DNA of 64,000 nt from Clostridiales bacterium. Lineage in GTDB: Bacteria; Bacillota; Clostridia; Oscillospirales; Oscillospiraceae. Position numbers and translations under genes: made by a program. The notes beneath the pieces were generated by a model. The model was not told the DNA's origin and ran no database searches. It worked only from the letters and a program-made list of their open reading frames with translations. The stretch lies in contig JALFRA010000014.1 in assembly GCA_022785125.1 (NCBI GenBank), forward strand, positions 1 to 64,000, read 5' to 3'. This document shows positions 10,779-29,678 of the stretch, in pieces; the stretch's first letter is position 1; each line of letters starts with the position of its first letter.

Positions 10779-10817
10779 GCGGGTATGACGGAATTGGCAG
10801 ACGTGCAGGATTTAGGT
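10779..10817 (+). pseudogene. 5' half of tRNA-Leu(UAG), split by element insertion
   Basis: The sequence follows the intact tRNA-Leu at 10949 from its first base through the D-arm, the anticodon stem 5' strand CAGGA and the loop TTTAGGT, with two differences (GTATGACGG, GACGTGCAGG). It then leaves tRNA sequence altogether. The missing 3' half is at 29633-29678; joined, the two give a normal 85-nt tRNA-Leu with CCA. Confidence 0.9.
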
Positions 10818-10833
10818 GCTGTCACCTCAGTGA
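10811..10833. other. left attachment junction (attL)
   Basis: Core TTTAGGT, then the inner arm GTGCTGTCACCTCAGTGA. The inner arm is a near mirror image of the arm at the right end (18 of 21 positions when the core is included). Confidence 0.8.
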
Positions 10834-10948
10834 AGAATTCATCAACCAGATAAAAGCGGGCATGTCCTGTTTTTATAGACGCGGCTCAAGCGCAACGCGC
10901 CGCCTCGGGTATCCCCTCCCCGAGTAAAAATAGAGGGAAACTGAATAT

Positions 10949-11033
10949 GCGGGTATGGCGGAATTGGCAGACGCGCAGGATTTAGGTTCCTGTGAAGTGA
11001 TTCGTGTGGGTTCGACCCCCACTACCCGTACCA
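10949..11033 (+). tRNA. tRNA-Leu (anticodon UAG), intact, inside the element
   Basis: 85 nt with encoded CCA. The acceptor stem GCGGGTA/TACCCGT, anticodon stem CAGGA/TCCTG with loop TTTAGGT (anticodon TAG), a long variable arm as in leucine tRNAs, and the T-arm GTGGG-TTCGACC-CCCAC are all sound. It differs from the split chromosomal copy in the D-arm and variable arm. It lies inside the element by the boundaries proposed here, so it would replace the tRNA that insertion destroyed. No clear promoter stands directly before it; the host promoter at 10734 probably serves it. Confidence 0.95.
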
Positions 11034-11042
11034 ACGTAAGTT

Positions 11043-11076
11043 GACGAGCTGCCAGAAACGGCGGCTCGTCGTTTTT
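11043..11076 (+). terminator. terminator after the intact tRNA-Leu
   Basis: GACGAGC pairs with GCTCGTC, with an inner GCC/GGC, followed by GTTTTTG. It lies ten bases past the tRNA and 40 bases before the STAND gene. Confidence 0.65.
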
Positions 11077-11115
11077 GTTAATCATTCAACTAATAATAAG
11101 TTTGGAGGTGTTAAA

Positions 11116-14100
11116 ATGTTAGATACGATAGGTGCTTTCGGGAGTGGTATTGGAACCAACCTTTTATCTGATTCTTTGAGCAAGAAACTTGAGGCTTTCA
11201 AAGACAAAAAAGCAATTGCCTCTTTCACCCAAAGTCTGCGAGATTGGGAAATTGAATTTGAAAAACAGAATGACGGCACTATCATCACAAACGGCGCATT
11301 TTATTCACATGTGAAGTATCATAATGTAATTGAAAATATTGTGGCTTATGTCCTTGAGCCGAGTATGAATGCCGTGACTGAGGATGAATTTCTAAATTGT
11401 CTCCATGAAAAAATGGTAAGCAGGATCGAAGAAACGACCGAAAAGAAATTATCTTGGAACGACTCAAGACTTATTCGGAATTTCCTTACACACTTACTTA
11501 CAACAACAAGAGCCTTTCTTTTTCAAAAAATATCTTTGGAAGATCGCGGCCTATTCTATTTGGTTTGCCAAAATAATGCCAAACTTGAGCACTTAGAACG
11601 GATTGTAAAAGAGAAATTCCAAATGCAGGATCAGAATGTCCAGCAAATTGTAGAACAACTCTCGATGGCTATTCAGAAGTCCGAAACAGAGGAACGCATC
11701 AAAGCAAAAATGGCTTCATGGAATTCCAGACAAATAAAGAACCTTGGTAACCGGTATACGCCAGATTTGAACATCCCTGTTGAAATAATGGACTCTCTCC
11801 ACGGAGCATCTGTCGATCAACAATTTCAGAATATATTCTATGACAAAGTAGATAAATTTTTGATTGCGATGAGACACACAGAGCTTAGTGAAATCAACGC
11901 ATTGTGTGATGCCATAGAGAAATATGCAATAGAATTGAATTTCTTCAATATTACATCAAGCGACATCGATGTAATAATTTCAACAGTTAACGCTATCAAA
12001 GATTTTCTAACCAGCAAAATAGAAGAATATTATGAAAACCCCGAAGGGAAGAAAAGTTTTGACAGTAAAGCATACCAGTTATACGAGAAACTGGGTATTG
12101 CCAACGAATTTAACGACTATCTAACTAATACAACTGTTAGGGTAGCCGTTTCCCCGTACATTATTTTGGCCGGAGATGGTGGTGTTGGAAAATCACATCT
12201 TATTGCCGATTACATTGATAACTGTGATTCTTTGGGGCAGACATCTTTACTTCTGTTAGGCCAGCAGTTTTCTGCGGGAATGGATGTTTTGGCTATTCTC
12301 CCAACTCTACTCGGTTGTGATATTACTTATCACGAACTTTTTGATATATTCGAAGCGATTGCCTGTGCTCAGAAAAGTCGTGTCCTGATCTGTATTGATG
12401 CTCTTAATGAAGGTGCTGGGGTAACTTTTTGGAACAGTGTTCTTGGTGGACTCGTTGATTTCCTGAAAGAGTTTCCTCACATTGGCCTCCTCGTGTCTGT
12501 GCGTACACAATATGAGGATCCTCTTTTCGACGGACAAGATACGCTTAGAGCACAAATGCAACGAATTGAACACTTCGGTTTCACTACAGTTGAACACGAT
12601 GCCATGCATCAGTACTTCTCTTTCTATGGAATAACCATTGACTCTGTAGTATTCCCAATTTCAGAATTCAGAAATCCGCTGTTTTTGCGGCTGTTTTGCA
12701 CCGCAAATAGAAATACGCACATTAGTCTGGGCGATATTTCATTGCCGTTTGTTTATTCGCAGTACATTAGTGTGATGGAGCAGAAAGTCGCTGAAAGATG
12801 TAACTATAACAAATCTTATAAATTAATTTCAAAAATTATTGACGAAATGGTTTCCAAACGTATCAATGAACATAGTGGAACCGTTTCACTTTCGCTTGAT
12901 GATACCCTTGCACTAATAGTTGATATCTGTAAGAAATGGAATGTTAACACCGATGTGTATAGTGCACTTCTTGCGGAAGGAGTTCTTACACAAGGCATTA
13001 CATATAACGGTGATGAGTATGTTTATATTACCTACGAACGACTGGAAGACTACTTTTTAGCACAGAAAATAGTTTCAGCGTATGCACAGTTAAGTGAGGA
13101 GCAGTTTTTTGAGAAGTATTCTTGGATGTTAAACAAGCCGGACCTCCTTCAATTCTTTGGTATTGTCCTTGCTGAAGACTGGGAATATGAACTGAGTGAT
13201 GTATTTTCCTCTGAAAACGCGAAGAATACATATCGTGTTCGCAATGCATTTCTTTATGGCTTATTATGGCGAAAAACAACCAGTATTACGGAGCATACTA
13301 TAGATTACATTAACTCGGAAATCCTGCAATATGAGTATAGTTTCAACCAGTTTGTAGATGTTCTCTTCGCATTATCAGCACGCCCAAACCATCCTTTGAA
13401 TGCCAAAAATGCATTTAACTTTTTTCATGGGGTAAAAATGTCAGACAGAGATGCTACATTTATTCCGATATTTGACGAATTATATAGTAATCACGATTCA
13501 GCGCTTTATCGACTCGTTGAGTGGGGACTTGTTCACGCCTCAAAGCAAGCTATTACCGACGATATTGCGGAAAGTTGTGCAATCATCCTTTCTTGGCTCC
13601 TAATTTCGCCTAACAACGAACTTCGGGATAAGGCAACAAAAGCTATCATTTGCATCCTGAACTCACACATGCCGGCATTATTATTCTTGATGCGGATATT
13701 TGAAGAAATTGACGACCCATACATTTCTGAAAGAATATATGCTGTCGCATTTGGCTGTGTGGTAAATGAAGATTCACCGCAACAGGTCAGGGCACTGGCA
13801 GAGCATGTTTACAAAAACATATTTGATAAGGATGTTGTATATCCAAATATACTGTTGAGAACCTACGCCAAAAACATTATCGATTATGCACGCCACATAG
13901 GCTGTGTTGAGGACGGGTATTTCGACGCAGAAAAAATCACACCTCCATATAACAGCAGATTCCCAGAAATTCCTTCGGATGAAGAGATTAAAACATATAA
14001 GTTGGACTATAACAGCGAATCATTTAGAGATTATCATTGGTCACAATTAGCTATTTTGAATTCAATGAAGGTTGAATACAGTCGAAGCGGTCAACCTGGT

Positions 14101-15357
14101 GGCTATGGTGATTTTGGAAGGTATACCTTTCAATCGTATTTTTACGCTTGGAAACAACTACATCCTATAGATTTAAAAAACATAGCCATTAAGCGTATCT
14201 TTGAACTGGGTTATGATGTCGAAAAGCACGGAAAATATGATCGAAATTGTACTGATCGTGTTGGTTTAGGGTTTCAGTTTGGAAGGAAGGAGCGTATTGG
14301 GAAAAAGTATCAATGGATAGCACTTTATGAATTGGCGGCTCAAGTCTGTGACAATTATCAGATTACGGTATACGACAATGACATAGGGGAACCACATCAG
14401 GAATACTGCAAGGGTTCTTTTGAGCCGGATATTCGGAACATCGATCCAACGGTACTTGTTACTCCTGTTTTTGATAATTTGCATATCGATATCGCAGCAT
14501 TTTCATATGACATCCCAAACAATACTTATGAGGAATGGCTTGCTGATTTTTCTGACACACCTACTTTTGTGCAATGCGTAAAGCTACAGTCCGGAGCACA
14601 TCAATATCTCTTACTTACGGGTGAATATGATTGGAAAGAAGCTAAGCGTTTAGGTTTCCGTTCATATGACCTTCCTCGCAAAGATATGTGGCATCAAATC
14701 AGAGGATATGTTGTAAAGAATGAATATGCTGAATCACTCATTTGCGCTCTTTCTGGTGTTGACTTTATGGGGCGTTGGATGCCTGAAGCTCAAAGTAACT
14801 CAGCAATGTACAACAAAGAATATTACTGGTCTGATGCGCATACTTTCTTTAATAACCCATATTATTGTGGTTTAGAATGGGTAAATATCGATTCTGACCG
14901 CCTTAATTATGTCTTCCCAGGAAAAGTATTAATTCCTGTTAAACAGTATTATAGCGAACGAAAAGGCGAACTGAATTGTTTGAATTCAGAAATAGCGTCT
15001 ATCTACTGGCACAAACCATGCGAGGAAATATATACAAAATTGCAATTAAAGTATTTAAAAGGCAGTAATAGCGCGTTTGTTGATGGTGCTGGGGAATTAG
15101 TATGTTTTGACGGTTCAGAGCTAATAGGTAATGATACAGGTTTCTATATCAGGTACGACAAGCTCCTTGAGTTTTTGAAAAGCAGCAGTTATACATTAGT
15201 GTGGACATCTTTGTGCGAGAAGCGCATATTGACTCCTCCGTTTGGAAGGTGGGATTTACCACCCAAGGCAATACACATGTCTTCTGTTTATTATCTGAAA
15301 GACGGTAAAATAACGAAAGCCAGTGAAACATTATTCGAAGACAGACTATATTATTAA
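11116..15357 (+). CDS. large STAND-type P-loop NTPase, Avs-like candidate anti-phage protein
   Basis: 1413 residues from the ATG at 11116, which follows GGAGGTG. Residues 1-330 form a helical N-terminal region of unknown function containing IKNLGNRYTPDLN, a motif I recall from large STAND proteins. The NTPase core has Walker A GDGGVGKS at 353-360 and Walker B VLICIDALNE at about 423-432, then SVRTQYE (sensor-like arginine). A long alpha-helical repeat region follows, and a C-terminal part (about 970-1413) includes ERIGKKYQWIALYELA, again recalled from Avs-like and related proteins. This layout (effector or adaptor, ATPase, repeat sensor) is that of STAND immune proteins, which recognize phage proteins and trigger cell arrest. 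The effector type is not evident. Base composition is far more AT-rich than the host. No promoter is visible in the 40 bases after the tRNA terminator. Confidence 0.7.
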   Translation: MLDTIGAFGSGIGTNLLSDSLSKKLEAFKDKKAIASFTQSLRDWEIEFEKQNDGTIITNGAFYSHVKYHNVIENIVAYVLEPSMNAVTEDEFLNCLHEKMVSRIEETTEKKLSWNDSRLIRNFLTHLLTTTRAFLFQKISLEDRGLFYLVCQNNAKLEHLERIVKEKFQMQDQNVQQIVEQLSMAIQKSETEERIKAKMASWNSRQIKNLGNRYTPDLNIPVEIMDSLHGASVDQQFQNIFYDKVDKFLIAMRHTELSEINALCDAIEKYAIELNFFNITSSDIDVIISTVNAIKDFLTSKIEEYYENPEGKKSFDSKAYQLYEKLGIANEFNDYLTNTTVRVAVSPYIILAGDGGVGKSHLIADYIDNCDSLGQTSLLLLGQQFSAGMDVLAILPTLLGCDITYHELFDIFEAIACAQKSRVLICIDALNEGAGVTFWNSVLGGLVDFLKEFPHIGLLVSVRTQYEDPLFDGQDTLRAQMQRIEHFGFTTVEHDAMHQYFSFYGITIDSVVFPISEFRNPLFLRLFCTANRNTHISLGDISLPFVYSQYISVMEQKVAERCNYNKSYKLISKIIDEMVSKRINEHSGTVSLSLDDTLALIVDICKKWNVNTDVYSALLAEGVLTQGITYNGDEYVYITYERLEDYFLAQKIVSAYAQLSEEQFFEKYSWMLNKPDLLQFFGIVLAEDWEYELSDVFSSENAKNTYRVRNAFLYGLLWRKTTSITEHTIDYINSEILQYEYSFNQFVDVLFALSARPNHPLNAKNAFNFFHGVKMSDRDATFIPIFDELYSNHDSALYRLVEWGLVHASKQAITDDIAESCAIILSWLLISPNNELRDKATKAIICILNSHMPALLFLMRIFEEIDDPYISERIYAVAFGCVVNEDSPQQVRALAEHVYKNIFDKDVVYPNILLRTYAKNIIDYARHIGCVEDGYFDAEKITPPYNSRFPEIPSDEEIKTYKLDYNSESFRDYHWSQLAILNSMKVEYSRSGQPGGYGDFGRYTFQSYFYAWKQLHPIDLKNIAIKRIFELGYDVEKHGKYDRNCTDRVGLGFQFGRKERIGKKYQWIALYELAAQVCDNYQITVYDNDIGEPHQEYCKGSFEPDIRNIDPTVLVTPVFDNLHIDIAAFSYDIPNNTYEEWLADFSDTPTFVQCVKLQSGAHQYLLLTGEYDWKEAKRLGFRSYDLPRKDMWHQIRGYVVKNEYAESLICALSGVDFMGRWMPEAQSNSAMYNKEYYWSDAHTFFNNPYYCGLEWVNIDSDRLNYVFPGKVLIPVKQYYSERKGELNCLNSEIASIYWHKPCEEIYTKLQLKYLKGSNSAFVDGAGELVCFDGSELIGNDTGFYIRYDKLLEFLKSSSYTLVWTSLCEKRILTPPFGRWDLPPKAIHMSSVYYLKDGKITKASETLFEDRLYY

Positions 15358-16649
15358 CGAGGTCTTGGATTGGAAACGCTTCCTTTCAATTTCTCTATTA
15401 CAATCTCATCTATCTCCCGCTCCAGTTCCTGCACTTTTTTCTGTAACGCAGAAATGTGGGCGTCGAGGATTGGTTTCCTCAACGCCCACATTTTTTGCAT
15501 CTGCGCCAGTTTCTTCAGTTCCTCCGCGCGGCTCTCACAAGCTGTGGAAACGAGCTCCCATACCCTCGCATCCAGCGTTTCCTCGTGGATTCGGTGGGAG
15601 GCACAATAGGTTTTGCCGTTCCTCTGATAGCCTTTGCAGACATACTCCACACGGCTGTTGCCCCTCCAATATCGGATCATCGGAACGAATGGGTTGCCGC
15701 ACTCGGCGCAGGCCAAAAGACCTGCATAACGGTGCCTGGCTTTATTGCCAGGTGCCGGGTGTTTCCTGGCGTTTTGGTTCAGCAACTCTTGTACCCGCCC
15801 CCAATCCTCCCGCTGGATGATGACCGGATAGACGCCCTCGTGCCGAAACTGTTCTGCTTCTGGTACAGCATAGGTTTTTCCTTCGCGCATTTGCTTGCGG
15901 TGATTTGTCAGCACACCGACATAGCTCTCATCGGTCAGAATGTTTTTTACACTGGTATAGGTCCAAACATAACTGCCGTCTTTGGCTTTGTGGATGTCCT
16001 GACGCCGTTTTCCGTACCGTTCATACTGGAGCTGCGCCGGAGTTTTTCGTTCCCGTTCATTCAAGCGCCGGGCGATTTCCTTCAGTCTGACACCACCCAA
16101 GTACAGAGAGTAGACCATTCGCACGGTTTCAGCGGCTTCTTCTATGACCTTGATTTCACCAGTGTTCTTATCTTTCCAGTACCCGAAGGACGGGATAATG
16201 ACGATACCCTCTTTTTGTTTTTGATGGTATCCAGCCCGAATCTTCCTGCCAATGTCTTTGGCATAGTAGTCATTCATCAGGCCGCGGACGCCGATTATCA
16301 AATCATCCTCATCGCGGAAGGTATCGACCCCTTCCGTTGCGGAGATCACCCGCACCTGATGTTCCCGCAGATAGTCAATAAATAATGCGGTCTGGGTCCT
16401 GTGGCGGCCAAGACGGGACAAGTCCTTTACGATGACAGCGTCGATTTTATCTGCGTCCACAGCCGCCGTGAGCTCGTCCAGCCCACGGCGGTTGAACTTC
16501 ATGCCGCTTACATTGTCATCGAAGGACTGTCCCACAATGATGTATCCGTGCTGCTCGGCAAACCCATGGCAGGTCTCCTGCTGGTTCAGGAGAGAGTTCA
16601 TCTCCTCGTCATCATCGTTTGACAGTCGCGCATAGATCCATACCCGCAT
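15354..16649 (-). CDS. serine recombinase 1, C-terminally truncated
   Basis: 431 residues. The catalytic resolvase domain has S10 in IYARLS, and DLSRLGRHRTQT carries the conserved arginines. It is followed by the recombinase domain (about 160-300), a zinc ribbon (CAECGNPF ... YVCKGY ... CASH) and the start of a coiled coil. Compared with its neighbour of 552 residues, it aligns to about EIVIEKLKG and then ends in an unrelated tail, SVSNPRPR. About 110 residues are missing. Its stop shares bases with the stop of the STAND gene reading the other way, so the lost end was probably replaced when the cargo entered. Whether it still works is unknown. It starts 10 bases after the end of recombinase 2, forming a tandem pair. 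Confidence 0.88.
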   Translation of the reverse strand: MRVWIYARLSNDDDEEMNSLLNQQETCHGFAEQHGYIIVGQSFDDNVSGMKFNRRGLDELTAAVDADKIDAVIVKDLSRLGRHRTQTALFIDYLREHQVRVISATEGVDTFRDEDDLIIGVRGLMNDYYAKDIGRKIRAGYHQKQKEGIVIIPSFGYWKDKNTGEIKVIEEAAETVRMVYSLYLGGVRLKEIARRLNERERKTPAQLQYERYGKRRQDIHKAKDGSYVWTYTSVKNILTDESYVGVLTNHRKQMREGKTYAVPEAEQFRHEGVYPVIIQREDWGRVQELLNQNARKHPAPGNKARHRYAGLLACAECGNPFVPMIRYWRGNSRVEYVCKGYQRNGKTYCASHRIHEETLDARVWELVSTACESRAEELKKLAQMQKMWALRKPILDAHISALQKKVQELEREIDEIVIEKLKGSVSNPRPR

Positions 16650-16659
16650 CTGTTATCAC

Positions 16660-18318
16660 CTATCCCGCATAGTAGTCGCCATAGATGATCGCACCCAATC
16701 GGTCATAATCGAAATCCGCAGAAAGGATGGAGTCCGTTTGCTCCCCATTTTCGAAGATGTCCAGATGATCCCGGAAAGGCGCTTTCAGCCGAATCTCTAA
16801 ATCCAGCTTACCATCCTCCTCGTGAACAAGGATCTTTTCCACCAGCATTTTCAGATGTGCCTCCGACATTTCGCCGTCTTGAAGAATATCGTCGATCAGT
16901 CTGATGTCTCGCTTTAGCTTGGCCTGGCGGCTGCGAAGCATTTCTGAGATGTTCTGCAGTTCTTCGATCTGCTTTTTGGCCTCCGCGATCTGCTCTTCAC
17001 GCTTTGCGATCATTCGGTCATAACGTTCCGCGTTGACCTTATCCCGGATGCGTTCCATCAAGATCACCTCCACTTCCTCCTCCAGCAGGAGAATGTGTTC
17101 TTGCAGTTTGCTTATTTTGGCACTGGCCACGGAAGCTTTGGGTGTCCACTTTTCAATGAGCCACTCCAGCCTCGACCAGTTTTCCTGATACAGTTTCTTG
17201 GTCCGGAGAAGCTCCGCGCTGATCAGGCGGTCCAGTGTTTCCTCATCCACCATGTGAGAGGAGCAATGCTCCTTGCCGTACCGATGGTAGGTATCACAGA
17301 CATAGACCACCCGTTCGCCGTCCTTCAGTTTGATCCGCTTGCCGATGAAAGTCCGGCCGCAGTCCTGGCAGCGCAGCAGGCCTCCGTACCGGAGGATACC
17401 CTTGTTGGTACCGGCTCGGGTATTTTTTGCCTTGCGCTCCACAAGAAGTGTCTGCGCCAGTTCCCATGTCTCACGGGTCACGATCACCGGCAGATAGTTT
17501 TCATGGCGGAACTGTTCCTCCGGGTCGGTGAAGCGGAAGGTCTTATTGATTTTATTGCGCTCGCTCTTGTGGCAGATCAGCGTGCCAATGTAGCTCTCAT
17601 CCTTAAGGATTCGGCCAACCATCGTCGCGTCCCACAGATATTTCTTGAGAATCCCATCCTGCGTATTGGGCAATCGCTTGTTTAACAGCTCCATCTGCAT
17701 GAGCGCGGGCGTTTTTCTTCTCTGCTCGTTCAATGTACGGGCAATGGCTTTCATCCCGCTGCCGTCGGTATAGGCGGAGAAAATCATGCGGACAGTTTCG
17801 GCGGCTTCCTCAACAACAACGACCTTCTTGGTGTTCTTGTCCTTAAAATATCCGAAGGGCGGAATGGTCACGATGCCCTCCTTTTGTTTCTGCCGGTAAC
17901 CGGTCCGCACACGCCGGCTGCCATCACGGGCGTAGAAGTCGTTGACCAGTCCCTTGAAGCCAATGATGAGATCACCGTTCTCGTTAAAGGTATCGATGTT
18001 TTCCGTCGCGGACAGGACCCGCACATTGTGTTCACGGAGGTAGTCAATGAAGAGTGCGGTCTGTGTCCGGTGCCGGCCAAGGCGGGACAGATCTTTGACG
18101 ATGATGGCTTCAATTTTCCCTGCCTCGACCACTTCATAGATTTTGTCGATACCCTCACGGTTGAAGTGCATGCCGCTGACATTGTCATCGAAGGATTCGC
18201 CAACCACTTGGTGGCCGTTGCTAATCGCAAAGTTATATATGATTTTTCTCTGGTTATTCAGAGAATTGAGTTCTTCATCCTCATCTCTGGACAAGCGGTA
18301 ATAGAGCCAGACTTTCAT
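16660..18318 (-). CDS. serine recombinase 2 (large, full length)
   Basis: 552 residues. The resolvase catalytic domain has S10 (LYYRLSRDEDEE) and DLSRLGRHRTQT near 76-87. A recombinase domain spans about 165-310, a zinc ribbon follows (CQDCGRTF ... YVCDTY ... CSSH), then a long coiled coil (about 400-490) and a C-terminal tail. Family knowledge: large serine recombinases of this build insert and excise clostridial elements (the TndX/TnpX group) without needing long homology. It is the best candidate for the enzyme that put this element into tRNA-Leu, although it lies about 6 kb from the left end because the STAND gene separates them. Confidence 0.93.
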   Translation of the reverse strand: MKVWLYYRLSRDEDEELNSLNNQRKIIYNFAISNGHQVVGESFDDNVSGMHFNREGIDKIYEVVEAGKIEAIIVKDLSRLGRHRTQTALFIDYLREHNVRVLSATENIDTFNENGDLIIGFKGLVNDFYARDGSRRVRTGYRQKQKEGIVTIPPFGYFKDKNTKKVVVVEEAAETVRMIFSAYTDGSGMKAIARTLNEQRRKTPALMQMELLNKRLPNTQDGILKKYLWDATMVGRILKDESYIGTLICHKSERNKINKTFRFTDPEEQFRHENYLPVIVTRETWELAQTLLVERKAKNTRAGTNKGILRYGGLLRCQDCGRTFIGKRIKLKDGERVVYVCDTYHRYGKEHCSSHMVDEETLDRLISAELLRTKKLYQENWSRLEWLIEKWTPKASVASAKISKLQEHILLLEEEVEVILMERIRDKVNAERYDRMIAKREEQIAEAKKQIEELQNISEMLRSRQAKLKRDIRLIDDILQDGEMSEAHLKMLVEKILVHEEDGKLDLEIRLKAPFRDHLDIFENGEQTDSILSADFDYDRLGAIIYGDYYAG

Positions 18319-18576: not shown

Positions 18577-18625
18577 AGCGTTCCTTTCCCCCGAAACCAG
18601 TTCGGGCAACAAAAATAGCAGACCG

Positions 18626-20296: not shown

Positions 20297-20319
20297 GTCG
20301 TTTCCTCCAGCCTTTCGTA

Positions 20320-20551: not shown

Positions 20552-21622
20552 TTACTCGCTGCCCCCGGAAACCGCCCGCAAATCGCCGCACAGCGCTCCG
20601 GCAGGGTCAACAGGGTCGACCGCCGGGACACCCTTGGTATCGTCACTTTCGGCACGCTGCAGCTCAATGAGCCGCCTTCCGTTGCTGCGGCGCACCCCAG
20701 CGGAAATGCCGATTTTCCTTAGTGCGTCAAGGTTTTGCAGGATCTGTCTGGACACTTTCTTGGGCGAGATACGCTCCACGCCTACAGGGTCGATTCGTTC
20801 AGACAGCTCTGTGGGAGTGCCGATAAATTCGGTTCGGTCACGCATCAGTTCAGAGAGGAGATAAACGATGCGGTCGCCCAGCAGCTCCGGCCGTGTCCGG
20901 CTGTCCGATACCAACTCCCACACATTTTCACCGTTGCGCTCCAGCGTCAGCTCCCGGTATTCAATGTCACGGCCAATACAAGAGAGCTTCGCTCTGCCGC
21001 TGCCCCGCCGTTCTTCCACCAGGGTGAAGCTGGAATCCACCGCACCGCTGATAGCAGTCGTACCAGAGATGCGATTGAACACATCGTCAGCGGTTTCCTT
21101 GCGCAGATGATGGATCAGCAGGATGGCGGTGCCGTGGGTATCTGCGATCCGTTTTAACACAGACAGATCCCGGTAGTCGTTTGCGTAGGTTGCGTCGCGA
21201 GCCGGACGAACCATCTGCAGCGTGTCGATGATAACCAGTACCGTATCCGGGTGGGCAGTGAGGAATGTTTCCACCTGCTCCTCCAACCCCTGTCCAATGA
21301 GGGCGCACTCCGTGCAGAAGTGGACGCTGCTTGGTGCCTCCTCGGTGATCTCGAAGAGCCGGTTCTGGATGCGGAGGACGGAATCCTCCAAGCAGAGATA
21401 GAGGGTAGTGCCTTGCTTCACGGACATCCCCCAGACAGGTTCGCCCTTGGCCACCATGACGGACAGCCACAGAGCCAGCCAGGACTTTCCCACCTTGGGA
21501 GAGCCGGCAAGGATGTGCAGCCCCTGAGACAGCAGCGTGTCCACCACGAAGTTGAGTGGTGTCAGCGGCAGGCTCATCAGGCTCTCACCGTCGACGGTTT
21601 GCAGTCGTTTTGTTTTACTCAT
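20552..21622 (-). CDS. RepA-like AAA ATPase (RecA/DnaB fold)
   Basis: 356 residues from the ATG at 21622 (AAGGGG ten bases before). The Walker A is GSPKVGKSW near residue 43, Walker B is VLVIIDTLQM near 135, and LIHHLRK is the sensor strand. This is the single-domain RepA/KaiC-type ATPase family seen on plasmids and integrative elements as a replicative helicase or initiator. The C-terminal part (about 255-330) looks like a winged helix (PKKVSRQILQNLDALRKIGI). A low-complexity tail follows. It may let the excised circle replicate or help relaxase-driven transfer. It diverges from the gene at 21773. Confidence 0.8.
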   Translation of the reverse strand: MSKTKRLQTVDGESLMSLPLTPLNFVVDTLLSQGLHILAGSPKVGKSWLALWLSVMVAKGEPVWGMSVKQGTTLYLCLEDSVLRIQNRLFEITEEAPSSVHFCTECALIGQGLEEQVETFLTAHPDTVLVIIDTLQMVRPARDATYANDYRDLSVLKRIADTHGTAILLIHHLRKETADDVFNRISGTTAISGAVDSSFTLVEERRGSGRAKLSCIGRDIEYRELTLERNGENVWELVSDSRTRPELLGDRIVYLLSELMRDRTEFIGTPTELSERIDPVGVERISPKKVSRQILQNLDALRKIGISAGVRRSNGRRLIELQRAESDDTKGVPAVDPVDPAGALCGDLRAVSGGSE

Positions 21623-21691
21623 CAGGATCATCCCCTTGTAAAAAAGATAAGGACAGAGACCACGCGGCCTCCGTGGCTCTTGTCCTTTCAC

Positions 21692-21719
21692 TTGATTATT
21701 GGGGGGATTTTGATAAAAT
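21692..21719 (+). promoter_or_regulatory. promoter for the accessory operon at 21773
   Basis: TTGATT (21692-21697), 16-base spacer, TAAAAT (21714-21719). An AGGAGGTGG ribosome site stands just before the ATG at 21773. Confidence 0.5.
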
Positions 21720-21772
21720 GAGAATATCGCAAGACAGGCAGAAAACGGATATAGGACAGAGGAGGTGGCCCT

Positions 21773-22897
21773 ATGCCATTGGGAATCAGGCAAAACAACA
21801 ATCTCCTGCATCTGACAATGGATGTCTGGCAGGATCAGATCTTTTTTAACGAGACCGTCTACCCGGCCGGCCACTTTGCCTCCGAACTGTTGAATGTTCC
21901 CGAGGAGACCATACGGGAACTGGTCGCCCACGGCGGTGCCATCAGCCATCATGTGGAGGCCCTGGCCAAGGCTGGGCGGGGTGAATTTATCAACCTGCTG
22001 GACGGGACCCACACCTCTCTGGAGAAGCTGTTGGACGCCCTGTGGCACTGTCCGCCGTACAGCCTGATGGACAAAGGGCAGGAGTTACACACTTTGGAGG
22101 TGCTGTTTTCCCCGGCGTCCCACAACGACCTGCTGAAGCCGGCTTCGCCTGCTCGGGAATTTTTCTTCCGCTATCTGGTGGCTGCCTTCAGCATCCCCCT
22201 GGGCATCCAGCACTTCGCCGTGGCGGCACGATATTTTGAGGAGGGCTATCTGCGACGGCTGAAGAAACGGACAGAGACCTTCTTTGCCATGGCCGCCCAC
22301 GACTGCTTCAACAGCGAATGGTTCTGGAATATGATGCGTGATTTGCCGGTACCGGATGTTGAGCCATTCACCATCACACCGAACCTGAGATCCTCCTATG
22401 TCTTTGCCCGACACCCAAAACAGGAAAAGGAAACCGTATTTGTGAACCGGTACTTCTTTGACCATGCCATCAGCTTCTACATCTTTGACCTGATGAACGG
22501 ACTGCAGCACGGCCATGCGCCCAGCCGGTGCTGTGGCTGTGGAACATACTTTCTCACCACCAACGGCCATATGCCGAAATACTGCGATGGCATTGCTCCC
22601 CAGGACCCCCGCATGACCTGCCGGCAGTACGGCGCCATGATGCGGCAGAAGGAGCAAAACAAGCAGCACCCGGTCTACCGCCTGTTCACCACCCGCACCA
22701 ACACCATCCGCAAGCATCACCAGAGAGGAAAGATCTCCGACGAGCTGCGCAATGAAGCGCTGTATGTAGCGGAGAACCTTCGGGACAAGGCGCTCATGGA
22801 TAACGACTATGCCGCCAACGGCTATGCCTGCGATATGGAGCAGGAATCGATCTACGCCCAGGCGAGAGCGCGCCTTGCCCGGGAGGACCGGCCATGA
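21773..22897 (+). CDS. element-borne protein with C-terminal zinc-ribbon-like motif (DUF6076-like)
   Basis: 374 residues, no signal peptide or membrane helix. A cysteine cluster at about 252-273 (RCCGCGTYFLTT ... MPKYCDG ... CRQYG) resembles the zinc ribbon of CGNR/abortive-infection-like proteins, where it closes a mainly helical domain. I recall such proteins from clostridial mobile elements under a DUF6076-type name, but the number is from memory. Its stop overlaps the next gene by four bases, so the two are translated together. Function unknown; a nucleic-acid-binding regulator is possible. Confidence 0.6.
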   Translation: MPLGIRQNNNLLHLTMDVWQDQIFFNETVYPAGHFASELLNVPEETIRELVAHGGAISHHVEALAKAGRGEFINLLDGTHTSLEKLLDALWHCPPYSLMDKGQELHTLEVLFSPASHNDLLKPASPAREFFFRYLVAAFSIPLGIQHFAVAARYFEEGYLRRLKKRTETFFAMAAHDCFNSEWFWNMMRDLPVPDVEPFTITPNLRSSYVFARHPKQEKETVFVNRYFFDHAISFYIFDLMNGLQHGHAPSRCCGCGTYFLTTNGHMPKYCDGIAPQDPRMTCRQYGAMMRQKEQNKQHPVYRLFTTRTNTIRKHHQRGKISDELRNEALYVAENLRDKALMDNDYAANGYACDMEQESIYAQARARLAREDRP

Positions 22898-23859
22898 GCA
22901 TGTATTGCTGTGATGATCTCTGCCTGAGTAACGAGGAGCTTGCACTGCGGATACAGGACGGCGATCCGCAGGCCGCTCCGCTCCTGCTTTCCCAGAATGA
23001 GGGATATCTGACCATGCTGGCCGCAAGCTACTGCGAGCAGTTTTCTCAGGAGTTTCTGGTGGACGACCTCAAGCAGGAGGGGGCGCTGGCACTGCTGGAC
23101 GCAGCGACGCGGTTTGATCCCTCCTATGGAACAAAGCTGCTGACCTATGCGACCCCCGCCATTGAGACAGCCATGCGGGACTGCGCTGCCCAAGGCTCTT
23201 TTTCTCTGTCGCTCCCACTGGACCGTTACCACCAGCTGCGCCAGGTAGCGTTTCTCTATGCTACACATGAGGGGGACACCGAAACAGATCTTCTACCAGC
23301 CATTCAAGAGAAGCTGACGGTCTCTGCCAAAGTAGCCAAGCGTCTGTTGGAGGAACACCGCACCGTGTTTCAGATCGAGTCTCTGGGCGAGCGTGTCTTT
23401 GACCTTGGGTGTGGTGGTGACCCCGCCAGGGCCTATGACCGCTTCATGCGCCGGACGCTGCTCCTCCAGCGCATGGAGGAGGTTCTGAGCCCCAGAGAGC
23501 TGAATCTGGTGCGCTGTTATCTGGGGATCGGCCAGCCCAACGAGCAGGGCATGACCTTTCAGGAACTGGCCATCCGGCTCAACTACAACGGACCCAGTGG
23601 TGCGGAGAAAGCATATAAGGCTGCCATCCGGAAACTGAGAAAGCAGTTGAACGGCGGCACTTACGGCCAGTGGCTCTTCATCCAGAAAGCCATTCGCAAG
23701 GCCAGAGCGGAGGCAGAAGCTGATTCCGGTTACTATGTGCCGCCGCAGACCACCTGGCTGGACGAAAAAGAACTGGCGGAGCGGTTTCTCTGTGAAGTTG
23801 TTTCTCTGATCCATGTCCATGAGATCTTCAGCGACGCATTGGAGCAGGACGCAGAATAA
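22894..23859 (+). CDS. sigma-70-like factor encoded by the element
   Basis: 321 residues. Residues 45-95 look like sigma region 2 (DDLKQEGALALLDAATRFDPSYGTKLLTYA), with the conserved aromatic run at the end. A region-4-like helix-turn-helix follows at about 195-245 (LSPRELNLVRCYLG ... MTFQELAIRLNYN). The C-terminal 70 residues are not recognizable. The overlap with the gene before it suggests a two-gene unit. It probably redirects RNA polymerase to element promoters or controls excision; this is an inference from the fold alone. Confidence 0.7.
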   Translation: MSMYCCDDLCLSNEELALRIQDGDPQAAPLLLSQNEGYLTMLAASYCEQFSQEFLVDDLKQEGALALLDAATRFDPSYGTKLLTYATPAIETAMRDCAAQGSFSLSLPLDRYHQLRQVAFLYATHEGDTETDLLPAIQEKLTVSAKVAKRLLEEHRTVFQIESLGERVFDLGCGGDPARAYDRFMRRTLLLQRMEEVLSPRELNLVRCYLGIGQPNEQGMTFQELAIRLNYNGPSGAEKAYKAAIRKLRKQLNGGTYGQWLFIQKAIRKARAEAEADSGYYVPPQTTWLDEKELAERFLCEVVSLIHVHEIFSDALEQDAE

Positions 23860-23904
23860 GCAGTGCGGCACCAGGCTTTGTCCTGATACCGCACTGCTTT
23901 TAAT

Positions 23905-24354
23905 TTATCCCATGCTTCCAATTTTATTACCGTTCTCGTACATATCCTCGGCGTATTCCACATGGTTGGGGCCTTGACTTTCTATCCAGCCGAAGCCCGG
24001 CACATAGACCATGTTGTCCAGTGCCGGGGCAGGCTCTGGTTCTTGCTGTGGAGTGGCATTCTGTTCAGGTGGGACTGGTACTTCACTCGCTGGGGGCGTT
24101 TGAGCAGGCGATGGCTCCGGGACAATGTCAGCTTCCTCGACCAGTTCCGGCAGTGTTGCTTTCGCCTTTTCTTCCTCTGGCGATATGACTTCTTCTATTT
24201 CTGGTATCTCCGGAACTTCGGGCTGTGTGGTGATTACAGCGGCTGGCGTGGGCAGTGCGGGTGTTTCCCCGGCTGGCTCTTCCTGCGGCCACACAGCAGC
24301 ACACAGGGCCAGACAGGCGGCGAATGCTGCGGCAGTGATGATTCGTTTCTTCAT
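23905..24354 (-). CDS. small exported or membrane-anchored protein, Pro/Glu-rich
   Basis: 149 residues. A signal-like N-terminus (MKKRIITAAAFAACLALCAAV) is followed by about 90 residues very rich in Pro and Glu and a conserved-looking end (NMVYVPGFGWIESQGPN). I recall similar C-termini in small proteins of clostridial conjugative elements (DUF6550-like, from memory). It may span the thick cell wall. Its start overlaps the stop of the gene upstream by four bases. Confidence 0.6.
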   Translation of the reverse strand: MKKRIITAAAFAACLALCAAVWPQEEPAGETPALPTPAAVITTQPEVPEIPEIEEVISPEEEKAKATLPELVEEADIVPEPSPAQTPPASEVPVPPEQNATPQQEPEPAPALDNMVYVPGFGWIESQGPNHVEYAEDMYENGNKIGSMG

Positions 24355-24671
24355 GTTGCTTCCTCCCTTCCGGACATGGAAAGAGCGCCCGATCTCTTCG
24401 CTGTACGGCGAGAGACTGAGCGCTCTTTTTCATATTGATTCAGTTCCATGGAGAGCCGCCACGCCAGCTCAAATCCAGAGATAAAGCTGTCCATGGAGCG
24501 TTCTTCTGCCATCAGACTCTGGGCATCCATGATTCGCAGTACCAGCCGCCGTTCCGGTTTCTCCAGCACTTTGATCAGTGCCTGGTGGCATTCTTCCACT
24601 TCCTGCTTCTGCTCCGAAAACTCAGGCGGGGTGTAGAAACAGTCGTACAGGTCCTTGAGTCGTGTTTTCAT
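24351..24671 (-). CDS. small helical protein of clostridial elements
   Basis: 106 residues from the ATG at 24671, preceded by GGAGGTGCAACGC; a frame ten codons longer lacks a ribosome site. It is all helical, with FYTPPEFSEQKQEVEECHQAL near the start and FISGFELAWRLSMEL near the middle. The latter resembles the small DUF6809-type proteins of Clostridia (name from memory). It is coupled by overlap to the Pro-rich exported protein. No function is known to me. Confidence 0.55.
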   Translation of the reverse strand: MKTRLKDLYDCFYTPPEFSEQKQEVEECHQALIKVLEKPERRLVLRIMDAQSLMAEERSMDSFISGFELAWRLSMELNQYEKERSVSRRTAKRSGALSMSGREEAT

Positions 24672-24701
24672 GCGTTGCACCTCCTGGTAGCAACACACCA
24701 T

Positions 24702-24977: not shown

Positions 24978-27900
24978 TTGGATACAAAAAAGTTAGACAA
25001 ATGGGCAGACTTGCTGTTAGACACAGGCAAGCGTAATAGCCTCATTAATTTTAAGGACACAAGGGCGTCCACCGTAGAAGTGCTGTTGCCATCTGCCGAG
25101 ACACTTTTCGAAAAAGTTGATGGGAGTGCCGCATTTGAGGTGTATGATCCAAAGATCATTGAGGACGATGATGATCTGAATGAGGATGATATAGCAGAAC
25201 AGTTACAGCTTGAGGTGCCGGAAAATTCGAAGGAATCAGATGGACGAGATGCTTATCTTGCTCAATATTCCGGAAAAATCAAACGGCAAAATCAAGTCTT
25301 GCTGTATAATGCGGCTGGAAATCCGCTGACTGCAATCAAAAACATCAATAAGAAGGCACGGGAGTTTATTGAAGAGACTGGCGTCAATGTCGCATATATG
25401 GCATTTGGTTTTATCCACTGGAAAGAAAGTGATTCTTCGAATTATATTTTCCGTGCCCCGATCTTACTTGTGCCTATCCAATTGGAGCAAGTGTCAGCAG
25501 TAGACCCTTATTTCATCAAATCGACGGAGGATGATGTTATCGTCAATCCGACCTTCGCCTATAAGATGGATGCAGAATATGGAGTAAAACTTCCTGATTA
25601 TAGTGATGAGGGTCTATCTGTTTATCTTGAAAAAGTTAAGCGTCTGGTTGCAAAGCTCCAGTGGACGGTATCTTCTGAATGCAAGCTCGGTATTTTTTCG
25701 TTTCTGAAAATCAATATGTATCGCGATTTGAAGGACAATGCCGCTGCGATCCTTGCAAATCAGAATGTCCGCAAACTTTTGGGTGAGCCTGTTAACTTGC
25801 AAGGAGCGGACACAGAAATCGGAGCTGCAGCTTCTGTTTCCAATCCTCTGATCGAACTGCATAGTGTGGTGGATGCGGACTCCAGCCAAATAGAGGCTAT
25901 CGAAATGGCAAAGTCAGGCAAGAGCTTCGTCTTGCAGGGCCCTCCTGGAACAGGTAAGAGTCAGACGATCACCAATATCATTGCAGAGTGCCTGGGCGAT
26001 GGAAAAAAGGTTCTGTTCGTTTCTGAAAAGTTAGCAGCATTGAGTGTGGTCTATGACAAGTTGAAGCAAGCGGGCCTTTCAGAATTTTGTTTAGAGCTTC
26101 ACAGTCACAAAGCCAACAAAAAAGATGTAATCACGGATATCTGCCATACACTTCGAGCTGACAAGAGCGCGGTTTCTTCGAAAGCGGACAGCGAAATTGC
26201 GCTCAAAGAGAAGGCCCAGCAACAGTTGGACGCTTATGCGGTAGAGCTGCATAAGCCTCATCCGATTATAGGGAAAAGCCTGTATCAGCTTTACGAGGCC
26301 TATGCGGCACTCAGATCCACGCCAGATGTAGAATGGAATGTTCCGCAACTCACTGCGAAAGGTGAATCGTACTTAACAGAAGCTGCCGCCCTCTTAGAGC
26401 AGTATGTTGATTATATTCCTACGGTTGGATATGACTATAGAAAGAATCCATGGTACGGCTATATTAACCAGGACACATCCTATCAGGCTAAGAGCAGTGT
26501 CAAAAACAGTATTGCGACAGGGATACAATTTCTGCAATCCTTGATTCCCTTGATTCAGGAAATTTCCGATAGATATGGCATCAACTGCACCACAATAGAT
26601 GATGCACGAACCTGGAAGGGCTTTTTCAGCACCGCCGCAACATCTCAAATTATCACTCCATCTCTGCTGAACAAAGAGCATTTTCAAGCAGTAAATTCTG
26701 CCTTAACCAAGCTGAGCGCACAGAGCGCTGAGATTCTCTCGTCCCGTTCAGTATTGGAATCCACTTTCGATGATGATCTTTACAAATTAAACGGCGCACA
26801 ATATCACAAACAACTGACAAAACAGTTCACCAGTGCCTTTGCAAGGTTGTTTAATTCCGAGTACAAAAAAATCATAGCGGACTTACGGCTATGCAAGAAA
26901 GATGGAAAAAAGCTATCTTACACCGAGGCCACCGCAGCAACAGAACGTCTCGCCTATTACCAGCAAAAGACGCAGGAATACTGTGAGGTCGAGGAGCCAA
27001 TCAGAGATTTTCTGGGCGCTGCTTACAAAGGTGTAGAAACAGACTGGAATTATGTAGCAGAGCAAATGGGTGCCCTGCAAGCATTATTCTGTGCTGGGGT
27101 ATCCTTTGGTTTGCTGGAGGAGTATTCCGATTTTGTTACTGAACGCACTACCTTTGCGGATTATGCCCAGCGTCTGGATGCTGTATTTGAGATTTGTGAC
27201 AACGATGTTTTTGAGTATATCTCAAACTGCTTTGATCGGTCACTCTTAGATATCGGCATTGCAAACTGTTCTTTGCTGTTGGCACGGTTCACTGACTGTT
27301 CGGATTCGATGGATAAGTTGGATAACTGGTGTCATTTCAGAACATTGCTTTCCAAGTTGGATGATGTACAAACCGTGTCTTATATCAACAGTGCCATCAG
27401 CCGAAATATAGAGCCAAAATTTATTGTTGGTGCTTTCAAAAAGCAGTTTTACTATCAGTGGATCGACTCGATTTTGTCGGGAACACCAGTCTTATCTGGG
27501 TTCAATCGAATCTCTCAGGACAACACAATCCGTACTTTTTCGGAAAAAGACACAGAACAATTTGAGATCAACAAAGCGAAGATCCGTGCAGAGATTTCCA
27601 GCAAACGTCCCTCTTTGGAGTTAATCGCTCCCGGAAGCGCTTTGGCAATCCTGCTCCGTGAAGGTGAAAAGAAACGAAAGCAGAAGAGCATTCGCTCCCT
27701 GCTTTCTGAAACGGGTGAACTTATTCAGCGTATCAAGCCGTGCTTTTTGATGTCGCCCCTAAGCGTCAGCACATTCCTTGCTCCGGATGCTGTCCATTTT
27801 GATGTTGTGGTATTTGATGAGGCATCGCAAATTTTCCCGCAAGACGCAATCGGCGCGATATATCGCGCTCAGCAACTGATCGTTGTGGGCGACTCCAAGC

Positions 27901-29618
27901 AGATGCCGCCCAGCAATTTTTTCAATGCCACCATTGAGGCCGAGGATACCGATGAAGAAAGCGGAGATGTCACAGATTTTGAATCCATCTTGGATCTGTG
28001 TTCTACTTCTATGCAGCAGCTTCGCCTGCGTTGGCATTATCGGAGCCGCTATGAGCAACTTATCACCTTCTCCAACAAGAATTTTTATGACAGCGATCTT
28101 GTTACATTCCCATCTGCCAAAGCAGACACCTCCGGCATTGGTGTAGACTATTATCATGTGGACGGGGTCTTTGACCGAAAGAGCCACTCCAACAGAAAAG
28201 AAGCAGAGTTTATCGTCGATCTGATTTATCAAAACATCGAACGATACCCTGATCGAAGCCTGGGTGTCGTTGCATTCAGCGTTGCGCAGCAGGATCTGAT
28301 CGACAAACTGCTATCCAAGCAGCGGCAGAATACACCAGGAAAAGAATGGTTCTTTAAAAACGACGCAAAAGAGCCATTCTTTATCAAGAACCTTGAGACC
28401 GTGCAGGGTGATGAACGAGATACCATTATTTTCAGCATCGCATATGGCGCTGATGCCCAGGGACGTCTGCTGCATAATTTCGGCCCCCTGAACCGTGTTG
28501 GCGGCGAACGACGGTTGAATGTTGCTGTCACTCGTGCCAAATGCAATGTTCAGCTGGTTTCCTCGATGCACTATACAGATATTGATTTGAAGCGTACATC
28601 TTCAGAGGGCGCGAAACTGTTGCGGGAATATCTTGACTTTGCGGAAAACGGAAATATCGCCCTGGAGCGCGCCGTGAGTATCAATTCCTTTGAACAGTTC
28701 GATTCTGACTTCGAACTTGAGGTATGTGAATTTTTGCGCGCTAACGGTTTTTCTGTTGACACACAGGTTGGATGTTCTGGGTTCAGAATTGATCTTGGGT
28801 TGAAGATTCCGAACAGTTCTGATTATGTACTTGCAATCGAGTGTGATGGGGCGACCTACCATTCTTCCAGGAACGCTCGGGACCGTGATCGTTTGCGGCA
28901 GGAAATTCTGGAGCGCATGGGTTGGAAGTTCTATCGCATCTGGTCGACTGATTGGTTCAGAAACAGAAGTGTGGAGCAAAGCCGACTTTTGGAAGCTGCT
29001 ACGGATGCAATCAAGCACCCTACACAAGTCTTAGCAAAGCCAGAAAAGGCACCTTCCGCAGAAACCTTTGAAAATTTTGAAGAAGTTGCGGAAGAGAAAC
29101 CCTTTGAGTTTTCACCTTACAAAGCCGCCGACATTCAATCTCTATGCCAGCAGTATCTGCCGCGCGATTTCAAAGGGATGGTGAAGGCCGTTTTGGAAGT
29201 GGAGGCCCCACTTTCTGAGGAACTGTTTCTGCGGCGTATCGTATGGTTATTCGGCCGGGAAAAAGTCACAAAGATTGTTTGGCAAGACTACGAGCAAAAA
29301 ATGTATGGATGTCAACGCTGTGGCATTATTCGACGGAATGGCTTTTTGTATTTGGAGAATGGCCAAGAAATTCAATTCCGAGGGCCGGGCGATATCGAAC
29401 GGGACATCAAGCAAATCGCCCCGGAAGAATTGGCCGCAGGAATGCTGGAGATTCTGAAGCAAAATGTAACGGCTGACAAAAATGGGTTGTACCGCTCTCT
29501 CGTCTCACAATGTGGTATAAACCGCGTGGGCAAAACAATCAATGAAATATTGGATTCCGCACTGCGCCTTCTTGAAGACACCATTGACATAGACGGCGAC
29601 CAGCTTTCACTAAGGTGA
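24978..29618 (+). CDS. DUF4011 - superfamily 1 helicase - Vsr-like nuclease, candidate defence protein
   Basis: 1546 residues, starting at a TTG seven bases after AGGGGG. Domains in order: DUF4011 (about 1-200, KLDKWADLLLDTGKRN); SF1 helicase Walker A GPPGTGKS at 321-328, motif II FDEASQ around 947, GDSKQMPP after it, and motif VI LNVAVTRAK at about 1180; a PD-(D/E)XK or Vsr-like nuclease with D1272 and ECD at 1288-1290 (YHSS follows); and a DUF3320-like C-terminus (about 1390-1520). I recall this fused layout as the Hhe-type anti-phage protein from defence-island screens. A defence role fits its place as cargo at the element end. It is AT-rich like the STAND gene. Its stop codon lies inside the right attachment arm. 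Confidence 0.8.
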   Translation: MDTKKLDKWADLLLDTGKRNSLINFKDTRASTVEVLLPSAETLFEKVDGSAAFEVYDPKIIEDDDDLNEDDIAEQLQLEVPENSKESDGRDAYLAQYSGKIKRQNQVLLYNAAGNPLTAIKNINKKAREFIEETGVNVAYMAFGFIHWKESDSSNYIFRAPILLVPIQLEQVSAVDPYFIKSTEDDVIVNPTFAYKMDAEYGVKLPDYSDEGLSVYLEKVKRLVAKLQWTVSSECKLGIFSFLKINMYRDLKDNAAAILANQNVRKLLGEPVNLQGADTEIGAAASVSNPLIELHSVVDADSSQIEAIEMAKSGKSFVLQGPPGTGKSQTITNIIAECLGDGKKVLFVSEKLAALSVVYDKLKQAGLSEFCLELHSHKANKKDVITDICHTLRADKSAVSSKADSEIALKEKAQQQLDAYAVELHKPHPIIGKSLYQLYEAYAALRSTPDVEWNVPQLTAKGESYLTEAAALLEQYVDYIPTVGYDYRKNPWYGYINQDTSYQAKSSVKNSIATGIQFLQSLIPLIQEISDRYGINCTTIDDARTWKGFFSTAATSQIITPSLLNKEHFQAVNSALTKLSAQSAEILSSRSVLESTFDDDLYKLNGAQYHKQLTKQFTSAFARLFNSEYKKIIADLRLCKKDGKKLSYTEATAATERLAYYQQKTQEYCEVEEPIRDFLGAAYKGVETDWNYVAEQMGALQALFCAGVSFGLLEEYSDFVTERTTFADYAQRLDAVFEICDNDVFEYISNCFDRSLLDIGIANCSLLLARFTDCSDSMDKLDNWCHFRTLLSKLDDVQTVSYINSAISRNIEPKFIVGAFKKQFYYQWIDSILSGTPVLSGFNRISQDNTIRTFSEKDTEQFEINKAKIRAEISSKRPSLELIAPGSALAILLREGEKKRKQKSIRSLLSETGELIQRIKPCFLMSPLSVSTFLAPDAVHFDVVVFDEASQIFPQDAIGAIYRAQQLIVVGDSKQMPPSNFFNATIEAEDTDEESGDVTDFESILDLCSTSMQQLRLRWHYRSRYEQLITFSNKNFYDSDLVTFPSAKADTSGIGVDYYHVDGVFDRKSHSNRKEAEFIVDLIYQNIERYPDRSLGVVAFSVAQQDLIDKLLSKQRQNTPGKEWFFKNDAKEPFFIKNLETVQGDERDTIIFSIAYGADAQGRLLHNFGPLNRVGGERRLNVAVTRAKCNVQLVSSMHYTDIDLKRTSSEGAKLLREYLDFAENGNIALERAVSINSFEQFDSDFELEVCEFLRANGFSVDTQVGCSGFRIDLGLKIPNSSDYVLAIECDGATYHSSRNARDRDRLRQEILERMGWKFYRIWSTDWFRNRSVEQSRLLEAATDAIKHPTQVLAKPEKAPSAETFENFEEVAEEKPFEFSPYKAADIQSLCQQYLPRDFKGMVKAVLEVEAPLSEELFLRRIVWLFGREKVTKIVWQDYEQKMYGCQRCGIIRRNGFLYLENGQEIQFRGPGDIERDIKQIAPEELAAGMLEILKQNVTADKNGLYRSLVSQCGINRVGKTINEILDSALRLLEDTIDIDGDQLSLR

Positions 29619-29632
29619 CATCACCTTTAGGT
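29607..29632. other. right attachment junction (attR)
   Basis: The inner arm TCACTAAGGTGACATCACC is followed by the core TTTAGGT at 29626-29632. Reading from this arm into the left inner arm (10813-10833) gives the proposed palindromic attP. The TGA stop of the helicase gene (29616-29618) lies within the arm. Confidence 0.8.
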
Positions 29633-29678
29633 TCCTGTGCCGCAAGGCGTGTGGGTTCGACCCCCACTACCCGTACCA
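29626..29678 (+). pseudogene. 3' half of tRNA-Leu(UAG), displaced by the element
   Basis: Anticodon loop, 3' anticodon strand TCCTG, variable arm, T-arm and acceptor 3' strand with CCA. It lacks the 5' half and any promoter. It belongs with 10779-10817. The original tRNA terminator still follows it. Confidence 0.9.

Follow-up and report, generated by a model that had tools for sequence, protein, structure and literature searches.

A leucine tRNA gene split in its anticodon loop and probably replaced by the copy carried on an integrative element of Clostridia

We analyzed a 64,000-nucleotide stretch of DNA (the window; positions 1 to 64,000 of contig JALFRA010000014.1) from a Clostridiales bacterium of the family Oscillospiraceae (assembly GCA_022785125.1). 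In this window an 18.8-kb element interrupts a tRNA-Leu(UAG) gene in the anticodon loop, both halves of the gene sharing exactly the sequence TTTAGGT, and a complete tRNA-Leu(UAG) gene lies inside the element. As a whole, the observations are very probably best explained by an insertion into the anticodon loop driven by a large serine recombinase (LSR), with the broken gene being replaced by the carried copy. The split, the empty sites, the carried tRNA, the palindromic attachment site of the element (attP), the recurrence of the arrangement, its association with recombinase genes and the series of split halves are all read from the sequence.

The split tRNA gene, its empty sites and its recurrence

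The 5' half of the split host tRNA-Leu(UAG) (10779-10817, + strand) terminates in TTTAGGT and the 3' half (29626-29678, + strand) starts at the same seven bases, as had been stated in the original prediction, which was made from the sequence of the window alone. This common core belongs to both attachment sites: attL (10811-10832, + strand) consists of the core and the left arm of attP, and attR (29608-29632, + strand) of the right arm, CACTAAGGTGACATCACC, and the core. Neither junction rebuilds the host tRNA. Joining the 5' half to 29633-29678 yields a tRNA that matches the intact one of the congeners G010 and G016, and also that of G003 (which has a different right flank), at 85 of 85 bases, in agreement with the claim that the joined halves form a normal tRNA. 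The complete tRNA-Leu(UAG) predicted within the element, slightly divergent from the split gene, is located about 130 bp inside attL (10949-11033, + strand). It is the sole tRNA called by ARAGORN in the window, scores 52 bits against RF00005, and is 91% identical to the joined halves (8 of 85 bases differ). The whole assembly (99.76% complete, 43 contigs) contains 10 BLAST matches to the joined tRNA; the remaining Leu tRNAs among them have the anticodons TAA, GAG, CAG, CAG, and CAA, and apart from the carried copy no intact tRNA-Leu(UAG) was found by this search.

Comparison of 20 genomes of the same genus, the window's own genome included, revealed an occupied site in five (G000, G002, G004, G008, and G009) and an empty site in four (G001, G007, G010, and G016). 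At the empty sites, whose flanks are 81-94% identical to those of the window, the flanks meet at 10817/29626 around a single tRNA-Leu(UAG), and no second copy is present within the 3 kb examined. Element-free relatives thus display the junction that had been anticipated for them, with one tRNA and no other beside it. Nine further genomes possess an intact tRNA-Leu(UAG) with flanks that were only partly compared (among them G003, which matches the left flank only), and no UAG tRNA was seen among the loci fetched from G011 and G014 (75% and 81% complete).

The arrangement was also searched for at greater distances. The attL pattern, allowing up to two mismatches, occurs in 19 of 300 genomes of the family; an intact tRNA-Leu(UAG) follows in 16 of these, the contig ends too early in two (G136 and G187), and the match in G150 looks like a chance one. 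An exact scan for attL in one genome per species (about 85,000 species genomes) retrieved 60 stretches with 78 matches, of which 71 have the tRNA-Leu 5' half (25-32 of 32 bases), six are apparently due to chance (8-11 of 32 bases, none with a tRNA), and one, L140, is intermediate (18 of 32 bases, with a tRNA). In the 53 loci that combine a split half with attL, the next tRNA is an intact tRNA-Leu(UAG) in 42 cases, at a distance of 54-1,722 bp from the last attL core; the other 11 loci run out 45-356 bp beyond this attL. Because the arrangement recurs in 42 of 53 loci and the other 11 are cut off, it is not due to chance. The records of the 53 loci belong to Oscillospiraceae and other Clostridia. 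Those from the species scan include Gemmiger, Anaerofilum, Butyricicoccus, Angelakisella, and a metagenome-assembled genome of the Lachnospiraceae, and their titles suggest a distribution of the UAG attL beyond a single family; among 394 genomes sampled from the order (at most one mismatch) it was present in 4, all of the window's own family. Viral contigs yielded no match to the attL pattern.

The original prediction had offered an alternative, namely that two tandem tRNA-Leu(UAG) genes existed beforehand and that only the first was hit, nothing being replaced. The window by itself would fit this, but the four empty sites hold one tRNA each and the combination of half, attL, and carried tRNA recurs with different alleles in the 42 loci that are not cut off, so that we regard the alternative as refuted, its residual probability being minimal. 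The statement that the element brings a replacement tRNA is supported by the same one-tRNA empty sites and by the recurrence in other species. Tandem duplication and misassembly were rejected as well, because of the empty sites and the recurrence.

Another possibility is that the tRNA is carried for a different purpose, such as decoding or resistance to tRNA-cutting defences, and that its position is incidental. Such roles have been proposed for phage tRNAs (PMC10865867, PMC11536984). The carried tRNA nevertheless shares the isoacceptor of the broken gene and is the next tRNA inside attL wherever a locus is long enough to show one, making an incidental position very improbable.

The allele of the tRNA gene varies at this locus. 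While the joined halves equal the tRNA of G010 and G016, the tRNA-Leu(UAG) in the same place in G001 differs at 19 of 85 bases; the flanks of G001 and G010 are 90-94% identical to the window, yet their tRNAs differ at these 19 positions. Therefore, tRNA alleles change here without the flanks. The elements may be the cause of this change, which would explain the difference between these two congeners. In G002 (31.8 kb), G145 (6.4 kb), and G009 (about 26 kb), the type of the carried tRNA differs from that of the split halves on either side of it, and the G009 element carries intact the very allele that is split in the window. In G015 (L023/L175) and G017 (L022), a tRNA-Leu(UAG) stands directly behind a promoter without a half or attL. 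In G015 the DNA after this tRNA resembles the DNA after the carried tRNAs of G004 and G008, and the locus is likely an element remnant; both loci could possibly derive from elements that left their tRNA behind as a host gene.

Several loci contain more than one split half. Two to four attLs occur in succession in 15 of the 53 loci, the longest series being that of L139 (CAMAZB010000046.1), with four 5' halves and then one intact tRNA-Leu(UAG). In G009, two 5' halves of one type go with a single 3' half of that type, and the examined DNA of G261 and of G090 contains three 5' halves and a single 3' half. Such series could arise if an element inserted into a carried tRNA and the DNA between 3' halves was later deleted.

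Attachment sites and serine recombinases

When the two ends of the element are joined, they make up a palindromic attP of 40 bp with TT at its centre. Around TT, 16-18 of 19 arm positions pair in six end pairs taken from five UAG elements; around TC, 16 of 19 pair in an element of S. variabile with tRNA-Leu(CAG), the sole CAG element with both ends. In every case this pairing was reached by none of 20,000 shuffles. The attP is identical in G000 and G002. Sites of large serine recombinases comprise a palindromic attP with a non-palindromic central dinucleotide, and the attP described here has this form, with a centre of TT for UAG and of TC for the one CAG element. We take TT and TC to be tRNA positions 33-34 in the standard numbering, by which the central TT falls on bases U33-N34. 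The attL core varies to TTTCGGT in G112, G145, and G160 and to TTTGGGT in G301; these variants suggest that base 35 comes from the element and therefore place the crossover to the left of base 35, unless they are later mutations. A TT core is also described for one multi-target LSR (PMC10083194).

The element encodes two adjacent recombinases, LSRa (431 aa; 15354-16649, - strand) and LSRb (552 aa; 16660-18318, - strand), which are 49% identical to each other. Both possess the domains that define an LSR, i.e. the Pfam domains Resolvase, Recombinase, and Zn_ribbon_recom (a zinc ribbon), and for both the best sequence match in the PDB is TnpX (E=6.8e-20 for LSRb), presumably the enzyme of Tn4451. 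Close matches to LSRb (E<=1e-180) were detected in 6 of the 300 family genomes, five of them nearly full length; all six genomes are among the 19 with attL, and the match lies on the same contig as attL. By a hand calculation that ignores relatedness, the odds of this co-occurrence by chance are about 3 in 100 million. An LSR pair is found behind the carried tRNA in G002, G009, G049, and G261, although the right end of the G049 element was not found. LSRb had no match at E<=1e-40 in phage records and no close relative in viral contigs.

More distant relatives of LSRb (40-56% identity) were examined at 15 loci: five genomes from the order's other families, nine loci in eight genomes from the rest of the class, and one S. 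variabile plasmid record, the only record with a relative in a plasmid search. An intact tRNA-Leu is present in the same element or adjoins the LSR gene in 13 of the 15 loci (10 CAG and 3 UAG); the contigs of the other two break off 446 bp (G501) and 110 bp (G743) beyond the LSR gene without a tRNA in view. The 5' half is also present in 11 loci, being short in G821 (28 bases, at one of its two loci) and G861 (23 bases), and the recombinase gene is convergent with the tRNA at a distance of about 50-1,050 bp in 11.

Integration by an unnoticed tyrosine recombinase or transposase, with the serine recombinases belonging to a nested second element, would account for the location of the LSR genes mid-element, between defence genes of lower GC content, and for a 6.4-kb element of G145 that has the same ends and no LSR homologue, with none recognised in its list of open reading frames. 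This explanation is opposed by the association of LSRb with attL in 6 of 6 family genomes, by the convergent LSR gene close to the tRNA in 11 of 15 distant relatives, by the palindromic attP with its non-palindromic centre, and by the finding that none of 13 scanned element proteins is a tyrosine recombinase. We therefore consider it very unlikely and retain the serine recombinases as the probable integration enzymes. The G145 element (L073, 2559-8970) also contains a carried tRNA, together with a vanG-type glycopeptide-resistance cluster as cargo, in which the VanG ligase and VanT-G score above the NCBIfam cut-offs. Since no recombinase was recognised in this element, some elements are presumably moved in trans.

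In a recombinase tree of 30 rows, some of whose long branches are unsure, the UAG pairs group into two clades (a and b), with the UAG singles placed among the CAG singles at modest support (87/79); on this placement the isoacceptor may have switched more than once. Beyond the element of the window, we lean towards a broader view, in which one LSR clade across Clostridia would be dedicated to tRNA-Leu anticodon loops, with U33-N34 as the address and the wobble base tying each element to one isoacceptor. The elements would behave as tRNA cartridges, each arrival breaking the present leucine tRNA gene, handing the host promoter to its own copy, and being displaceable by the next, which would lead to serial stacking and let an essential tRNA gene be exchanged horizontally, even by elements that lack a recombinase.

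Two of the CAG loci have additional features. G341 (L194+L195) contains a 23-base piece resembling a tRNA 3' end between the recombinase relative and the intact tRNA-Leu(CAG). L178 (OY725838.1, 12676-20767) is a split tRNA-Leu(CAG), preceded by a promoter-like sequence as judged by eye, on a 109.8-kb circular Subdoligranulum record labelled as a plasmid; this record may be a chromid or a mislabelled piece of chromosome.

Expression of the carried tRNA and proposed mechanism

The host tRNA-Leu promoter, a sigma-70-like TTGACA-17-TAAACT (10734-10762, + strand), lies outside the element and reads into it. We scored promoters (at least 9 of 12) with shuffled sequences as the expectation. A promoter lies no more than 90 bp upstream of the outermost half, i.e. 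the outermost exact attL of the examined stretch, in 19 of 51 loci vs 3.3 expected; because the outermost half was defined within that stretch only, this count may be too low. Ahead of the carried tRNA, 2 of 39 loci had a promoter vs 2.1 expected. These two results favour reading from the host promoter, and the carried tRNA seems to have no recognisable promoter of its own. Of the original claim that the host promoter at 10734 points at the replacement, the presence of the promoter stands, and its presumed use by the carried tRNA has statistical support.

Alternatively, the carried tRNA could be made from its own promoter in the leader, as demonstrated for phage Fionnbharth (PMC10865867). In some other elements a TATAAT-like box was noticed by eye ahead of the carried tRNA, and the 2 leaders of 39 mentioned above do reach the score of 9. 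That number, however, equals the shuffle level, seven leaders measure merely 54-65 bp, and the + strand of 10650-11150 yielded the host promoter alone. An own promoter is thus rather unlikely, though it has a better claim than the other alternatives.

The DNA ahead of the carried tRNA encodes a putative structured RNA leader (10850-10941, + strand), and a terminator-like hairpin follows the tRNA (11042-11071, + strand). The leader has 20 predicted pairs, with 95% of cells paired in 19 sequences; 18 cells are changed on both sides vs 5.1 in shuffles, a value attained by none of 500 shuffles and falling to at most 5 when the pairing is slid. It was found in 19 of the 300 family genomes, and it also occurs ahead of intact tRNA-Leu(UAG) genes that have no split half in the examined stretch (e.g. 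G114, G214, and G296). The leader has no Rfam match, and Rfam applied to six loci gave the tRNA and sub-threshold matches only. Elements may have picked up this module from host loci or have left it there.

From these data we infer recombinase activity, expression from the host promoter, essentiality of the tRNA, transfer, and excision, combined as follows. LSRb, with LSRa as its partner, would insert the element into the tRNA-Leu(UAG) anticodon loop by crossover at the dinucleotide U33-N34 (TT), so that the tRNA gene would be broken while the element stays; the host would survive thanks to the complete tRNA-Leu(UAG) on the element. This carried tRNA would be transcribed from the stranded host promoter and released by RNase P from the chimeric transcript. 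It would also be a fresh attB, at which later elements could insert and stack, and precise excision would restore the old tRNA gene.

Several observations weigh against this mechanism. A close match to LSRb is present in only 6 of the 19 attL-positive genomes, the one in G189 covering only 307 residues; the other 13 genomes encode a more distant enzyme, lack one, or are represented by a short contig. The recombinases of the window are encoded 4.5 kb inside attL, behind cargo. The two to three attL halves per single 3' half in G009, G261, and G090 would need later deletions, and for G009 and G261, with their several attLs, the pairing of ends into attL and attR was assumed. Among the distant relatives, a 5' half was not found in G341 and G833, the recombinase gene of G341 is on the same strand as the tRNA, and that of S. 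variabile is 27 kb away, between the two halves, which are themselves 39 kb apart. In 32 of 51 loci, the outermost visible half is not preceded by a promoter of the chosen grade. Lastly, no intact attP was found in viral contigs or in the 177 loci examined, other collections not having been searched.

Relation to known systems and other genes of the element

The principle of supplying a substitute for a broken tRNA has a precedent in tRNA-dependent lysogeny, defined in actinobacteriophages with tyrosine integrases (PMC10865867, mBio 2024); that report names a possible case in a Lactobacillus prophage and states that the spread outside actinobacteriophages needs study. The elements described here resemble these phages in having a short common core, in not rebuilding the host tRNA, and in supplying a tRNA of the same isotype. 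They differ in that the phages use tyrosine integrases and the genes for tRNA-Lys, Ile2, and Leu-CAA, the tRNA of Fionnbharth having its own promoter and overlapping another gene (PMC10865867), whereas here serine recombinases, relaxase-bearing elements of Clostridia, and tRNA-Leu UAG or CAG are involved, with an apparently promoterless tRNA just inside attL and halves in series.

Similarities also exist to the Tn4451-type integrative mobilizable elements (IMEs) of Firmicutes, which share a large serine recombinase, mobilization, and very short direct repeats (PMC5704250). Site-specific IMEs with serine recombinases are reported to disrupt dispensable genes (PMC5704250); here, by contrast, the target is the sole leucine tRNA gene with a UAG anticodon that was found, and it is replaced. 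Paracoccus phage vB_PamS_Pami6 has a serine recombinase with a predicted site in tRNA-Met (PMC6536676), the likeness being the assignment to a tRNA gene, and in prophages of M. abscessus all three serine-integrase sites are situated within reading frames (PMC8092301). Elements with tyrosine integrases also target tRNA genes, anticodon-loop sites included, but the tRNA is rebuilt at the junction (PMC8371274). The islands of S. meliloti likewise target a tRNA and bring extra tRNA genes; in contrast to our case the tRNA is rebuilt, and there is no evidence in that report that the brought tRNAs become new integration sites (PMC11476347), as they seem to do here. The ssrA islands of Dehalococcoides (with a CcrB-like DsiB and a small DsiA; PMC3146451) and SCC similarly have two serine recombinase genes and an essential RNA gene as target. 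The Dehalococcoides islands are bounded by a 20-bp direct repeat of ssrA, and a tRNA-Gly-like sequence is situated inside a gene 4.4 kb from attL (PMC3146451). Unlike the situation in SCC, LSRa and LSRb score 59-78 bits against CcrA, CcrB, and CcrC, below the NCBIfam cut-offs of 700-900.

We found no report of a replaced tRNA involving a serine recombinase or a non-phage element in the literature searched, most subscription papers being outside its coverage. Given the phage precedent, the principle of replacing a broken tRNA is already known, and the present case is a version, with serine recombinases, outside phages, and with stacking, for which no report was found. The data suggest that a serine-recombinase clade in gut Clostridia follows this as a lasting strategy outside phages, and they illustrate how a tRNA gene that the host needs could serve as the target of enzymes with a minimal core, contrary to the reported pattern of dispensable targets. 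The element would be hard to lose, acting as a built-in addiction. The clade also supplies att pairs for studying isoacceptor-specific integration.

The other genes point to mobility and defence. The element has its own site-specific recombinase with defined attL and attR as well as relaxase and mobilization genes, two features of an IME, and no transfer-apparatus family was detected among the element proteins scanned; it is integrative and probably mobilizable. A MobA/VirD2-like relaxase (18626-19981, - strand; PF03432, E=8.6e-33) is encoded next to a NikA-like mobilization protein (19985-20416, - strand; PF21983, E=4.9e-21). Two genes appear to be defence cargo: an Avs2-like NTPase between the carried tRNA and the recombinases (11116-15357, + strand; PADLOC Avs2, E=1.3e-284, no Pfam match) and, at the right end, a DUF4011 helicase-nuclease (24978-29618, + strand) that domain search and PADLOC indicate to be a candidate Hhe-like defence protein, PDC-S37. 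The remaining genes encode an AAA_25 ATPase according to Pfam (20552-21721, - strand) and, by domain search, a DUF6076 protein (21773-22897, + strand), a sigma-70 region 2-like protein (22894-23859, + strand), a DUF6550 protein (23905-24354, - strand), and a DUF6809 protein (24351-24701, - strand).

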